NCBI GenBank assembly: GCA_003225315.1
Contig: QHZD01000018.1
Span: 1 to 64,000 of the forward strand
Reading direction: 5' to 3'
Source of the DNA: Acidobacteriota bacterium
Lineage (GTDB): Bacteria; Acidobacteriota; Terriglobia; Acidiferrales; UBA7541
Length of the DNA: 64,000 nt
Under the pieces are notes generated by a model. The model saw only the letters and a list, made by a program, of their open reading frames with translations. It ran no database searches and was not told the DNA's origin. A program made the position numbers and the translations under genes. How positions within the stretch are numbered: the first letter of the stretch is position 1; each line of letters begins with the position of its first letter. Below are positions 2,241-6,501 of the stretch, piece by piece.

Positions 2241-2606
2241 GCCAAATCACCCGCCCTTCACCACGCACGCCACGACAGATTTTCCTGTGACTCCGTTGAG
2301 ATGGCAGGCTCGACTTTAGCTTGGGTGGCTAGTCTGATAGAGTGCTGGCACTTAGGCTCGATTTGTCGCTGGCGTCTGTCTGTACTTTGACTAACTTTAG
2401 GAGGAAGAGCGGCCGCATGGGAAGGCGGGCCCGACGCGGAAAACCTCCAGCAATATTGCTGGAAGGGGCCGAAAGAGCAAAGATCGGGGCTTCGGGACAT
2501 CGAGCTGGGGTGTAAAGGCAAGAATACAGAGGGTTTAGGGGTACAAGTATTAGCGGGGCGGGATTTGCAATGTGTAATATTTGCAGGTCCTTGCGCGTAC
2601 TAGTCT
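2241..2606 (+). promoter_or_regulatory. Gene-free leader with an 18-base perfect palindrome
   Basis: No convincing gene is seen in these 366 bases. At 2446-2463 is a perfect 18-base palindrome, TCCAGCAATATTGCTGGA, about 145 bases before the sigma gene; it could be an operator for a dimeric regulator or an RNA hairpin. A short AGTGC/GCACT hairpin lies near 2340-2351. No confident sigma-70 or ECF promoter was recognised. Confidence 0.45.
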
Positions 2607-3215
2607 ATGGAAACGCTGAGACCAGGCCGGATGAGCGCGCCGGGAATCAAGGAACCGACGGAGGCGATTGCCCGTGCCAGGGCGGGTGACGCCGAGGCTT
2701 GGGGCGAACTTTACCGGGATTACGCACCCGCGATGTTCCGGTTCTGCAGGCGTGCCTTGCCGACACGGGAAGATGCCGAAGACGCCATGATGGAAATTTT
2801 CATGAAATTGAAAGGCAAGCTGGTGCAGTACGATACGACGCGGTCGTTCTCCGCCTGGCTTTACAAAGTGGCAGCGAACCACTGTTGGGATATTTTGCGG
2901 CGGCGGAAGATTCGCCAGGACAAGGAAACGGACGATCTCGATAACGTCCCACTAGAGCATCCGGACCCCAGCCAACTGGATCAACTGATCGAACAGCGCA
3001 GCAGCGAGGAAGTGCGCAAGGCGCTGGAAAAACTGGGCGGACGCGCGCGCATGGCGCTGGTGATGCGCTATTACTCAGACATGAGCTACGACGAAATTGC
3101 GGATGCGCTGGGAGTGCGGCGCGCCTTCGTGGGCGTGGTGCTCTTGCGTGCCCGGCACGAACTGCGGCAAGCGCTGGAAGGCAATGCAGCGCTGGCGGCG
3201 GGAGGGGCTTCATGA
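2607..3215 (+). CDS. ECF-family RNA polymerase sigma factor
   Basis: A 202-residue ECF sigma factor. Region 2 spans roughly 33-105 (LYRDYAPAMFRFCRRAL, AEDAMMEIFMKLKGK, FSAWLYKVAANHCWDILRRRK), including the -10 recognition segment; region 4 is at about 140-195 (ALVMRYYSDMSYDEIADALGV, a helix-turn-helix). There is no extra C-terminal domain. Its stop overlaps the next start (ATGA), so it is translationally coupled to the anti-sigma/bactofilin fusion, the usual sigma/anti-sigma arrangement. A second in-frame ATG at 2631 is possible. Target promoters are unknown. Confidence 0.88.
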   Translation: METLRPGRMSAPGIKEPTEAIARARAGDAEAWGELYRDYAPAMFRFCRRALPTREDAEDAMMEIFMKLKGKLVQYDTTRSFSAWLYKVAANHCWDILRRRKIRQDKETDDLDNVPLEHPDPSQLDQLIEQRSSEEVRKALEKLGGRARMALVMRYYSDMSYDEIADALGVRRAFVGVVLLRARHELRQALEGNAALAAGGAS

Positions 3216-4900
3216 GCGAAAAGCCGGGAGAAAAAGTGAAGCATCTGGACGAAATGACGCTCTTGCTTTATATCGAGCGGCAACTGGATCGCGCCCGTGG
3301 GCTGGAAGTTTCCGCGCACACTCAGGAATGCGACACCTGCCGCACGTTGCTGCGGGCGCTGGAACGTGAATCGCGCTTGCTGACTCGCGCAATGCTGGAA
3401 GAAGACGAGCCATTGCCCTCGCGACTGGCGCAATTTCAAGAACGGGCGCGCAAGTCCATGCAATGGATTTGGGGATTAGTTTTCGGTCTGGCGGCAACGG
3501 GAGCCTACGCGCTTTATACCGGATATGTCCTGCCCTGGGAAACGCAACTGGAGCAAGCGGGATTCGGGGGGTCGAACCTGCTGAGCTTGCTGATCTTTCA
3601 GGGCGCAATGTGGAAAGGATGGCAATCCATGATCACACTCCTCGAGGTGCTGGCGATGGTGACGCTGGCGGGATTGGGAGCCATGTTCTTCCGCCGTCGG
3701 CTCCGGCGCGGTTCGGCGCTGGCGCTGGTCTTCGCGGGATTGTGCACCGTGCTGGCGATGCCGACGGGAGCGTCGGCGACGGAGCTTCGCCACGAGGAAC
3801 GATTGACGATCGCGAAAGACGAGGTCATCCACACTGATTTGTTCGCTGCCGGAGGACGAATCCGCATGGAAGGCACCATCGAAGGTGACTTGGTGGTAGC
3901 GGGCGGGGACGTCGAAATATCCGGCCATGTTCTGGGCGATGTGATTTCCTCGTCGGGAACGTTGCGGATACCGGGCCACGTGGACGGAAATATCCGAAGC
4001 TACGCGGGAAACCTGACTTTGAAAGGAACGGTCGGCCGCAACCTCATGATATTCGGCGGCGACGTGAACATCGACCGCGACGCCAAGATCGGCGGGAGCA
4101 TCACCTCCTTTACCGGACATGAATCCATCGATGGACATGTGGGCCGCGATGTTCTGGCCATGGGCGGGCAGATCACCATCACGGGGGCGATTAAGGGTTC
4201 AGCAAAGATCAAGAGCGGGGAGTTGATTATCGATTCGTCCGCCGAAGTCAGCGGCCCGATTGATTTCACGGGAGACAAAGAGCCGCAAGTTTCCTCCGGA
4301 GCCAAACTGGCTTCACCCGTTCATTTTAAAAAGATGAAGCACGGTGATGACTACCGGACGGTGCACTATTACGTCTGGCAGGTTATTTGGGCTGCGGCGT
4401 TTATTTTGTTTGGGCTGGTGCTGTTCGCTGCGATGCCGAATTTCTCGCAAGACGCTGTGAAATCGGCGGAGCACTACGGCGCGTCGGCGGGCTTGGGTGT
4501 GCTGGTACTGTTTGGCGTGCCGATCGCGGCGTGTATTGCGTGCATCACCGTGGTGGGGATATTCATCGGAATCTCAACGCTATTCCTGTGGTATGCGTCG
4601 CTGTATTTCGCGCAGATCATCGTGGGCGCACTGATTGGACAGTGGCTGATGGGGCGGACCAGCGAGCTTTGGCCGCTGATCGGGCGAATGACCGTGGGGG
4701 TAGTGATCGTACGACTGTGCACGACGATTCCGCACGTGGGAGGCTGGGTGAAATTCGCGGCCATTCTCTGGGGCATTGGCGCGCTTTCACTGGCGGTTTA
4801 CCGGCGGTTCCAGCCGGTGATTGCCCCAAACATGCCATCCGCGCCGTACACGCCGCCGATTCCGCCGAATACGACGGTGGGCGGGCCGCTGCCGGCGTAA
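3212..4900 (+). CDS. Anti-sigma zinc-finger / bactofilin-like multi-domain membrane protein
   Basis: A 562-residue fusion. Residues 11-60 form a zinc-binding anti-sigma (ZAS) module with H36-x3-C40-x2-C43; hydrophobic segments follow at about 84-104, 140-160 and 168-187. Residues about 195-370 form a repetitive, Gly/Ile/Val-rich beta-helix (GTIEGDLVVAGGDVEISGHV, then repeats every ~20 residues) like bactofilin/polymer-forming domains. A second membrane domain of several helices occupies about 385-540, and the tail is Pro-rich. By family logic the N-terminus sequesters the upstream sigma factor, and the beta-helix, probably extracytoplasmic, could sense or assemble in the envelope. The sigma stop overlaps its start. 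Joining all these modules in one chain is unusual. Confidence 0.8.
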   Translation: MSEKPGEKVKHLDEMTLLLYIERQLDRARGLEVSAHTQECDTCRTLLRALERESRLLTRAMLEEDEPLPSRLAQFQERARKSMQWIWGLVFGLAATGAYALYTGYVLPWETQLEQAGFGGSNLLSLLIFQGAMWKGWQSMITLLEVLAMVTLAGLGAMFFRRRLRRGSALALVFAGLCTVLAMPTGASATELRHEERLTIAKDEVIHTDLFAAGGRIRMEGTIEGDLVVAGGDVEISGHVLGDVISSSGTLRIPGHVDGNIRSYAGNLTLKGTVGRNLMIFGGDVNIDRDAKIGGSITSFTGHESIDGHVGRDVLAMGGQITITGAIKGSAKIKSGELIIDSSAEVSGPIDFTGDKEPQVSSGAKLASPVHFKKMKHGDDYRTVHYYVWQVIWAAAFILFGLVLFAAMPNFSQDAVKSAEHYGASAGLGVLVLFGVPIAACIACITVVGIFIGISTLFLWYASLYFAQIIVGALIGQWLMGRTSELWPLIGRMTVGVVIVRLCTTIPHVGGWVKFAAILWGIGALSLAVYRRFQPVIAPNMPSAPYTPPIPPNTTVGGPLPA

Positions 4901-5013: not shown

Positions 5014-6501
5014 TTAGAAGAAAGCGCGAACTTTGGCGGCGCTAAATGCGGGTGTGAATTGGGAACCAAAGTAAAGGGCACGCACGGCGGCAGTACCGCC
5101 GACCGTGAGACTGGTGGCGTTCGGAACCCCGTCATAATTCGTGCTTGGCGAGCCAGAACTGACTTGCGCTTCGTAGGATGTGGCGGGGCCGAAGAACGGC
5201 GGCAAGGATTGGAGATTGAAGAAGGTAGACGCAACATTCGAGATGCTCCCTGTGACGCGCGTGAAGCGAAGTGCGACGGTGTCTGCGGCTATGGCTGCCA
5301 GGACACTGCCACTCTTTGCTGTAAACGCGTTGACATGCAAAGCCACTGTTTGGCCGGGAACGATGACGGATGCGTCAGTGTTATTTGTGAAAGGTGTGGC
5401 TACTACCGGCAAGCCTTTGCTGTCCACTAGGAACGGGTTTACGTTGCTAAGGGTGACCTGCATCGGGTCACCAAGACTCAGATTGGCGCCGATGAGGCTG
5501 CTGGACGAAGCCAGAGAAATGTCATTTGTGACGATCTGGAATTGCGTGGAGGACGATGGCACTGAAGTTACGATGCCTTCGATCCAATCGGAACTAGTGG
5601 GAGCAATAGGGTCGTATTCCAGCGCGGTGAAAGTGCCATCGGAATTGAGGACCGTGTCAACGCTGGCGAACTGTCCGACCGCCGGGGTGCAAGCAGCGCC
5701 GGTGGTAACGCAATTCGGAATTAAAACGGTGGAGGAGTTCAGCGCGGCAGTGATCGAGCCGCAGGTAGAAGTCTTGACCGTCACGGAGGATGCAGAGGCC
5801 GCGGTGACCGTGCCGGTCACGTCCTCAATAAAGTCCAATTGACCAGTACCCAGGCTGGAGGTGGTGGAGGTCGGGGCGAGCGTGGAAGCCGTCAAGACGT
5901 TGGCCCCCAGGTTCACTGCAGAGACCACTTGAGGCTGCGTGCTACTGATGGTGATGGCGTTTGCAAAATTGAATTGGATTTGAATGGCGGTTTTCTGGCC
6001 GGAAGCCAGCGTCGCCGAGAAAGATGAAGTCGAAGGCGTGCTCGCAGCGGTCTGCGCAACTTGCTTGACGCTGCCGGAGTCGCAGCCGAGTGTTCCCCCC
6101 AGGTCAGTGCAATAGGTGACGACAGCGGTTGTTACGCCAACAGTGATTTTGTTATAGGTGTCCGCTGGAACGCTGGCAAGGACTTCCCCTAGCGCGGAGT
6201 CACTTTGCAGACGCGTCAAGTCCACGACGTAGGTCGCGGTATTGAGAGGAACGGTCACGGCGCTGCCGCTCGTGGGCGTTAACTGGATGGAACTAAGGGT
6301 AACGGCAAAGGAGAGAACGGAAGTGCTGGGTGAACCGCCAGGCGCAGTAGCTTTCAACGGCACTGCGGCGAGAGTAAAGCTCACCGTAGCGTTGCCGCCT
6401 CCACCCCCTCCGCCCCCACCGGTCTTTCTATGAAGGTTGCAGGAGGAAAGAGCGAAACAAGAGAGGACAACCAGGAAGAACAAAGGTTTGTTGCGAGCCA
6501 T
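5014..6501 (-). CDS. DUF4382/DUF5666-like lipoprotein
   Basis: A 495-residue predicted lipoprotein. The N-terminus is a signal peptide with lipobox-like ALSSC, followed by a short basic stretch and a nine-glycine linker. Residues about 38-200 (SFAVTLSSIQL, VDLTRLQSDSALGEVLASVPADTYNKITVGV) resemble DUF4382; the rest carries repeats around EDVTGTVTAASASSVTVKT and DWIEGIVTSVPSSSTQFQI, resembling DUF5666-type beta domains. No catalytic motif is visible. It is expected at the periplasmic or outer surface, function unknown. It is transcribed towards the sigma/anti-sigma pair and ends at a shared hairpin. Confidence 0.75.
   Translation of the reverse strand: MARNKPLFFLVVLSCFALSSCNLHRKTGGGGGGGGGNATVSFTLAAVPLKATAPGGSPSTSVLSFAVTLSSIQLTPTSGSAVTVPLNTATYVVDLTRLQSDSALGEVLASVPADTYNKITVGVTTAVVTYCTDLGGTLGCDSGSVKQVAQTAASTPSTSSFSATLASGQKTAIQIQFNFANAITISSTQPQVVSAVNLGANVLTASTLAPTSTTSSLGTGQLDFIEDVTGTVTAASASSVTVKTSTCGSITAALNSSTVLIPNCVTTGAACTPAVGQFASVDTVLNSDGTFTALEYDPIAPTSSDWIEGIVTSVPSSSTQFQIVTNDISLASSSSLIGANLSLGDPMQVTLSNVNPFLVDSKGLPVVATPFTNNTDASVIVPGQTVALHVNAFTAKSGSVLAAIAADTVALRFTRVTGSISNVASTFFNLQSLPPFFGPATSYEAQVSSGSPSTNYDGVPNATSLTVGGTAAVRALYFGSQFTPAFSAAKVRAFF

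Follow-up and report, generated by a model that had tools for sequence, protein, structure and literature searches.

An open reading frame at 3212-4900 of the window, the 64,000-nucleotide stretch of acidobacterial DNA analysed here, joins an N-terminal zinc anti-sigma (ZAS) domain to a bactofilin-like beta-solenoid, and the segment ahead of the solenoid looks like a conserved internal signal peptide. The reading that we prefer, and to which we give about an even chance, is that a ZAS plus two-transmembrane-helix anti-sigma has been joined to an exported, membrane-anchored bactofilin-like partner, that the product is cut into two, and that the second half senses the envelope and modulates the anti-sigma. 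To judge from the sequences, the fused chain is likely a preprotein cut by signal peptidase, and this arrangement is the surprising part; the rest varies the zinc anti-sigma theme. The features of the region are collected in Table 1.

Table 1. Features in and around the fused gene (window coordinates; residue numbers are those of the 562-aa product).
Feature	Coordinates	Strand	Basis
ECF-type promoter candidate: -35-like GTAATATTT, 13-nt spacer, -10-like CGTA	2574..2599	+	pattern and alignment
ECF sigma factor gene, 202 aa	2607..3215	+	TIGR02937 1.2e-31; Sigma70_r2 and r4_2 over cut-off
Fused anti-sigma / bactofilin-like gene, 562 aa	3212..4900	+	ORF, family alignment
ZAS anti-sigma domain, residues 8-62, H36/C40/C43	3233..3397	+	motif, weak TIGR02451, Foldseek 2q1z
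Transmembrane segment 1, about 84-107	3461..3532	+	hydropathy and flanking charge, 51 sequences
Transmembrane segment 2, about 138-161	3623..3694	+	hydropathy and flanking charge
Putative internal signal peptide, about 158-189: RRRLRRG, hydrophobic stretch, P-x-x-A187-S-A189	3683..3778	+	(-3,-1) rule, A-x-A
Bactofilin-like beta-solenoid, 190-374, predicted periplasmic	3779..4333	+	PF04519, AlphaFold2, 6rib Foldseek (weak E)
C-terminal membrane domain, 384-533, about five TM helices, C-terminus predicted inside	4361..4810	+	AlphaFold2, loop K+R
DUF4382 lipoprotein-like gene, convergent with the fused gene	5014..6501	-	DUF4382 1.2e-6

The fused frame runs from ATG to stop without interruption through 562 codons, its start sharing 4 nt with the 3' end of the sigma ORF, and the order of domains in its product is ZAS, membrane segments, beta-solenoid and C-terminal membrane domain. 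An artefact, or a fusion peculiar to one genome, can be rejected because 51 sequences, including that of the window, align over the fused length; matches are present in 71 of the 101 neighbourhood genomes. This alignment leaves out duplicates (L001, L031-L038, L077 and L078), partial copies (L013, L023, L028 and L069) and loci short of a full fusion (L062-L065, L067, L068 and L070-L076), and retains L066, which is without the two-helix stretch. In L066 (genome G057) the ZAS domain is joined almost straight to the signal peptide; the genome search returns this copy as two separate matches and a stop, and it may be an assembly fault. The closest named relatives are Acidobacteria MAGs, with a gp2 label on five of eight loci, and four more fused members (L129-L132) belong to genomes of the same phylum that are not given as the same class.

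By its profile matches the ORF at 2607-3215 is a plain ECF factor, and a sigma match lies beside the fused ORF, on the same strand and at its anti-sigma end, in all 55 fused loci, that of the window included. The distance from the sigma gene to the first residue of the ZAS model is within 65 nt in 54 loci and 235 nt in one. The Hx3Cx2C motif is present in all 51 aligned sequences, in 4/4 further fused members and in 7/7 split anti-sigmas (see below). Profile matches to the window protein fall under their cut-offs (zf-HC2, E 0.13; TIGR02451, ChrR family, 7.7e-4 at 10-63); zf-HC2 reaches E<=0.01, an E threshold and not the profile cut-off, in 30 of the 51 family members, and the relative L055 has a zf-HC2 / ChrR profile match over cut-off. 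AlphaFold2, run with the 51 sequences, places helices at 14-65, with 10-residue confidence blocks of 74-86 over 11-60 and lower values beyond, and the fourth PDB match of the whole model in Foldseek is 2q1z, ChrR bound to SigE (probability 1.00, E 0.49). With Hx3Cx2C in an N-terminal helical domain and an ECF sigma gene adjacent, as in class I zinc anti-sigmas, the fused protein is by motif and gene context a zinc anti-sigma, which would presumably bind and inhibit the neighbouring factor.

The second half scores 30.1 bits with the Bactofilin profile PF04519, whose cut-off is 27.9, with its best stretch at 217-298; in a six-frame search the score is 27.4 bits, just under the cut-off. The profile reaches E<=0.01 in 50 of the 51 family members. 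The AlphaFold2 model built with the 51 sequences contains a beta-solenoid with confidence blocks of 90-95 over 201-370, followed by helices at 384-533, and the part from 190 on, modelled with 82 sequences, has a mean pLDDT of 92.3; at the level of these models the beta-helix fold of 190-374 is firm. The pTM of the whole-protein model (51 sequences) is 0.45, and the relative arrangement of the domains is therefore not fixed by it. In Foldseek, 6rib, the Thermus bactofilin filament, is the first PDB match of the whole model (probability 1.00, E 0.16) and the third of the mature part (probability 0.80, E 0.22), with no match of either at E<=0.001, and VIA-align ranks generic beta-helices first with Z up to 17.8, so that the bactofilin link comes mainly from the sequence profile. 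A PDB sequence search returned one irrelevant match (E 0.16), and structure searches on models that include the solenoid gave no outstanding PDB fold for the C-terminal membrane domain. The PF04519 match and the beta-helix core are those of a bactofilin; however, bactofilins are cytoplasmic, with one core and short flexible ends, whereas this protein is predicted to be exported, with membrane segments on both sides of a solenoid longer than the Pfam core (about 185 versus 98 positions). As modelled, the second half is thus not a plain bactofilin, being predicted to be exported and membrane-anchored. Four further bactofilin-profile proteins are encoded in the same genome, all in short frames of 145-221 aa (G000:C46, C9, C29:211696 and C39; L220-L223).

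These results bear out the original prediction of an anti-sigma zinc finger fused to a bactofilin-like beta-helix, through the open frame, PF04519, AlphaFold2 and the 51-sequence family. Its putative zinc ligands, H36, C40 and C43, are as proposed and invariant in 51/51. Structure prediction, which it had suggested as a check, gives N-terminal helices, a beta-solenoid and C-terminal helices, and the second multi-helix membrane domain that it placed after the beta-helix corresponds to the helices at 384-533 that follow the 190-374 solenoid in the AlphaFold2 model. Three membrane segments had been proposed ahead of the solenoid; the first two stand as predicted, and the third (about 166-189) looks more like an internal signal peptide than an ordinary transmembrane helix.

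The case for a signal peptide is one of conservation. The family signature consists of RRRxRRG, a hydrophobic stretch, in most members P-x-x, then A187-x-A189, the cut site and E191, with the predicted cut after A189 falling between nucleotides 3778 and 3779. In the 51 sequences the n-region (158-170) contains a mean of 4.04 and a median of 4 K+R; position -3 is A in 42, G in 5, S in 2, V in 1 and I in 1, position -1 is A in 48 and G, S and T in 1 each, and the residue at +2 (191) is acidic in 50. With the letters that the (-3,-1) rule allows, the A187/A189 site satisfies it in 51/51. Elsewhere, 13 positions, most of them glycines in the solenoid or the membrane helices, likewise satisfy the rule in at least 95% of sequences. 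A-x-A, however, stands at 80% at 187-189, at no more than 6% at those 13 positions and below 50% everywhere else in the protein, and positions 185, 186, 188 and 190 around the site are variable. Five further fused sequences, read by eye as GHA, SHA, VYA, AEA and SYA, fit. A cruder, rule-based scan for signal peptides requires A at -1, an uncharged hydrophobic stretch and a positively charged n-region; it recovers the site in 46 of the 51 proteins, but it also reports a different site in 20/51 and calls at least one site in 153 out of 1020 shuffled sequences. The argument therefore rests on conservation at one place. AlphaFold2 is uninformative on this point, its confidence being low over 161-190 (blocks 47-52). 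An ordinary third transmembrane helix is disfavoured because A-x-A is conserved at that place alone, and translation starting internally at M158, directly ahead of the signal peptide, is disfavoured by the presence of Met there in only 11/51.

Loop charges are consistent with this assignment. Mean K+R values over the 51 sequences are 2.67 for 66-85, 0.35 for 106-122 and 4.04 for 158-170 in the N-terminal half, and 1.78, 0.00, 1.20, 0.08 and 2.12, in order, for the loops after the solenoid. The positive-inside pattern predicts a cytoplasmic ZAS domain, two helices, the signal peptide, a solenoid outside, five helices and a C-terminus inside. A cytoplasmic beta-helix, which would have spoken against the original prediction, is contradicted solely by this topology prediction from loop charges.

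Relatives in which the parts are separate offer insight into how the fusion arose. Seven loci (L070, L076, L109, L110, L111, L112 and L113) carry three genes in the order sigma, ZAS and exported solenoid; these were found among loci chosen from search hits, so that seven is a minimum and gives no rate, and L111 and L112 are near-identical while L070 and L076 are close. The C-terminal membrane model matches in five of the seven and in neither L111 nor L112. The anti-sigma and solenoid genes of L110 overlap by 4 nt, and split and fused copies are present within one genome in G088 (L070 with L055) and in G073 (L076 with L058). Genes for the 170-562 part without an anti-sigma (L062, L063, L064 and L065) have signal peptides at the matching point, as judged by eye with provisional start codons. 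Locus L068 contains a sigma gene, a membrane protein with no Pfam match and a bactofilin-like gene, and is perhaps the same system with a diverged anti-sigma.

The fused sequences, of which 33 out of 55 were used, cluster together with a support of 98 in an unrooted tree of the solenoid plus membrane domain, and they do so again with 100/99 in a second unrooted tree (32 fused rows) that deliberately omits L132, L137, L112, L063 and L138. The split pair L109/L110 joins the fused group next (91 in the first tree, 96/93 in the second), and the other split loci form a distant group. Standalone loci were admitted where they match both the solenoid and the membrane models (L071-L075 failed), and contribute 25 rows, or 22 in the second tree, of genes whose fetched stretch gives no match to either sigma or ZAS. 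A sigma tree with 30 fused loci is short (194 columns) and was given less weight; it places 29 of the 30 fused sigmas with L109/L110 at a support of 97, the split pair being nested among fused rows at weak forks, and L057 falls outside, at the end of a branch 4.4 changes per site in length. Because the fused forms group together with a split pair adjacent, the two trees of the solenoid plus membrane domain suggest that a three-gene operon probably came first, followed by one in-frame fusion of its second and third genes in which the signal peptide of the exported partner was kept. Repeated independent fusion is unsupported, a single change sufficing on the tree, which is unrooted and holds a sample of the fused loci.

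The promoter candidate ends 7 nt ahead of the sigma ATG, and with so short an interval the sigma transcript may be nearly leaderless. A CGT at the -10 place is a usual feature of ECF promoters. Of the 54 fused loci that could be scanned (the fifty-fifth, L059, is too short), 41 contain the pattern G[AT]AA..T-N12-15-CGTA, as against 14 of 5400 mononucleotide shuffles of the same stretches; for a looser pattern the counts are 40 of 54 and 75 of 5400, respectively. The pattern was derived from some of the loci counted and the shuffles preserve base content only. Autoregulation of the sigma operon is likely on this evidence. The window's own genome has four strict sites and zero for the reversed pattern, and across 16 genomes the looser pattern gives 120 sites as against 67 for the reversed control. 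One strict site precedes an HtpX-like membrane protease gene (L152, G000:C31:104680-104705, minus strand; the protein is under the HtpX cut-off), and is present in 5 of 30 orthologues inspected (33 were found), with one further, in G028, resembling a degenerate copy. Sites beyond the operon itself are leads to a putative regulon, for which the evidence is thin. A recurring GAAACATTTCG-CCCG-GGGCGTA element is seen at L150 and similar sites, in L150 at 130 nt before a membrane-fusion-protein-like gene (by eye); the GAAACATTTCG-CCCG-GGGCGTA element possibly belongs to another ECF sigma.

The DUF4382 gene convergent with the fused gene is a frequent neighbour: among 28 fused loci, 11 have related ORFs within the fetched sequence, mostly next to the operon. 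Just upstream, at 199-2240, lies an arsenic-type cluster of an ArsR-family regulator, an arsenite methyltransferase (PRK11873, 2.7e-110) and an ArsC/LMW phosphatase-like protein.

From the architecture, conservation, gene adjacency, signal-peptide signature, split relatives, grouping of the fused forms and promoter pattern, all of them sequence-based, we infer a scheme of sigma binding, topology, cleavage, sensing and degradation. The ZAS domain would hold the sigma factor at the inner membrane, the internal signal peptide would direct export of the beta-solenoid to the periplasm, and cleavage after A189 by signal peptidase I would yield two membrane proteins at 1:1, an anti-sigma (ZAS-TM-TM-signal stub) and a bactofilin-5TM half. 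The latter would watch the envelope and modulate the anti-sigma half through membrane or loop contacts; on envelope disturbance the sigma factor would be freed, probably via degradation of the anti-sigma half, and would switch on its own operon from the conserved promoter. The presence of M50 proteases in the genome (best E 8.8e-63) is what would be expected if sigma release goes by intramembrane proteolysis. A narrower version we regard as doubtful: a single gene would supply both an anti-sigma and the periplasmic bactofilin-type sensor that belongs to it, signal peptidase would separate the two at the internal signal peptide, and sigma activity would report the assembly state of an extracytoplasmic bactofilin scaffold.

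The cut after A189 could instead be the regulated step, with a shielded site that becomes exposed on a signal or a change of assembly and with signal peptidase acting as the site-1 protease ahead of a site-2 protease, as for RsiV and RsiP. A conserved signal-peptidase-type site exactly at the domain border would suit this, there is the precedent of RsiV and RsiP (in the accessible part of PMC8844934), and the genome encodes signal peptidase I (three PF10502 matches) as well as M50 proteases. However, the site resembles a full signal peptide and is neither weak nor masked, the same segment in the split operons can serve only ordinary export, and the ZAS domain is tethered by two further helices, so that cleavage at A189 would by itself leave it bound to the membrane. 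With a complete-looking signal peptide, and two helices between the site and the ZAS domain, a constitutive cut therefore fits better than a trigger, and we consider regulated cleavage unlikely.

It is rather improbable, in our estimate, that the chain stays intact and relays the assembly of a bactofilin-like polymer, or envelope strain, to the ZAS domain, as the original prediction had it. The fusion is indeed retained as one chain across one sequence group and its solenoid is bactofilin-like, but a conserved cleavage-type site lies between the halves in 51/51 and seven loci lack the covalent link; a continuous chain is therefore unneeded and may be absent in the mature protein. The solenoid also exceeds the Pfam core and is followed by a membrane domain. 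We likewise give little credence to the proposal that the bactofilin half is an output and not a sensor, fused to the anti-sigma for sigma-driven 1:1 dosage, with signal perception at the ZAS zinc site or elsewhere. Standalone genes of the same kind with neither a sigma nor a ZAS match in the fetched stretch are consistent with an output, and the operon's own promoter would raise the dose of the bactofilin half; the link to the anti-sigma both as an operon and as a fusion fits a functional pair, although this is suggestive only.

Bactofilin-like solenoids with a C-terminal membrane domain occur well beyond the fused family, and a search of the literature, in the parts accessible, turned up no function for an exported bactofilin-like solenoid. 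That one family ties such a solenoid to a sigma factor and its anti-sigma, in some loci through an operon and in others within one gene, suggests that this branch has a role in envelope signalling, for which it offers a direct reporter. If the anti-sigma does arise from a preprotein that carries an internal signal peptide, this would be an unusual maturation of a sigma regulator. The word bactofilin is absent from the main text of the anti-sigma survey PMC7406223, and the fusion may stand in its tables or in the large 2021 ECF classification; in the accessible portions of the literature naming both bactofilin and anti-sigma we found no work joining the two.

The fused protein resembles several known systems and differs from each. 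Like the class I zinc anti-sigmas (ASDI/ZAS; ChrR with SigE), it has Hx3Cx2C, a sigma gene directly upstream, a transmembrane tether and an extra C-terminal part, but here the extra part consists of an exported bactofilin-like solenoid and a five-helix membrane domain, preceded by a putative internal signal peptide. With the bactofilins (PF04519; Caulobacter BacA, Thermus bactofilin) it shares the beta-helical core, a profile match over cut-off and 6rib among its top fold matches, whereas it is predicted to lie outside the inner membrane, is longer and has a membrane domain after the solenoid; studied bactofilins have one core and short unstructured ends (PMC10945521, in the part accessible). 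Standalone 'polymer-forming cytoskeletal' proteins with a C-terminal membrane domain have the same solenoid and membrane domain but are unfused, with no sigma/anti-sigma pair adjacent in the fetched stretches; proteins of this type have weaker, partial matches in haloarchaeal and other plasmids (11 records in a plasmid search, none reaching 80% coverage). RsgI of Clostridium thermocellum is likewise an anti-sigma with a periplasmic part that is cut as the first signalling step (accessible text of PMC12203970). RsgI, however, autocleaves a periplasmic domain, and its domains and sigma class differ. RsiV and RsiP are single-pass anti-sigmas, cut after one membrane segment with release of the cytoplasmic part. 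Both are cut by signal peptidase in a signal-dependent manner, the site in RsiV lying in an amphipathic helix that is exposed on lysozyme binding (PMC8844934, as far as its text was accessible). The fused protein shares with them a signal-peptidase site, here by sequence rule only, adjoining a membrane segment of the anti-sigma, but it is not single-pass: two predicted helices lie between the ZAS domain and the site, and the site itself belongs to what appears to be a complete internal signal peptide.
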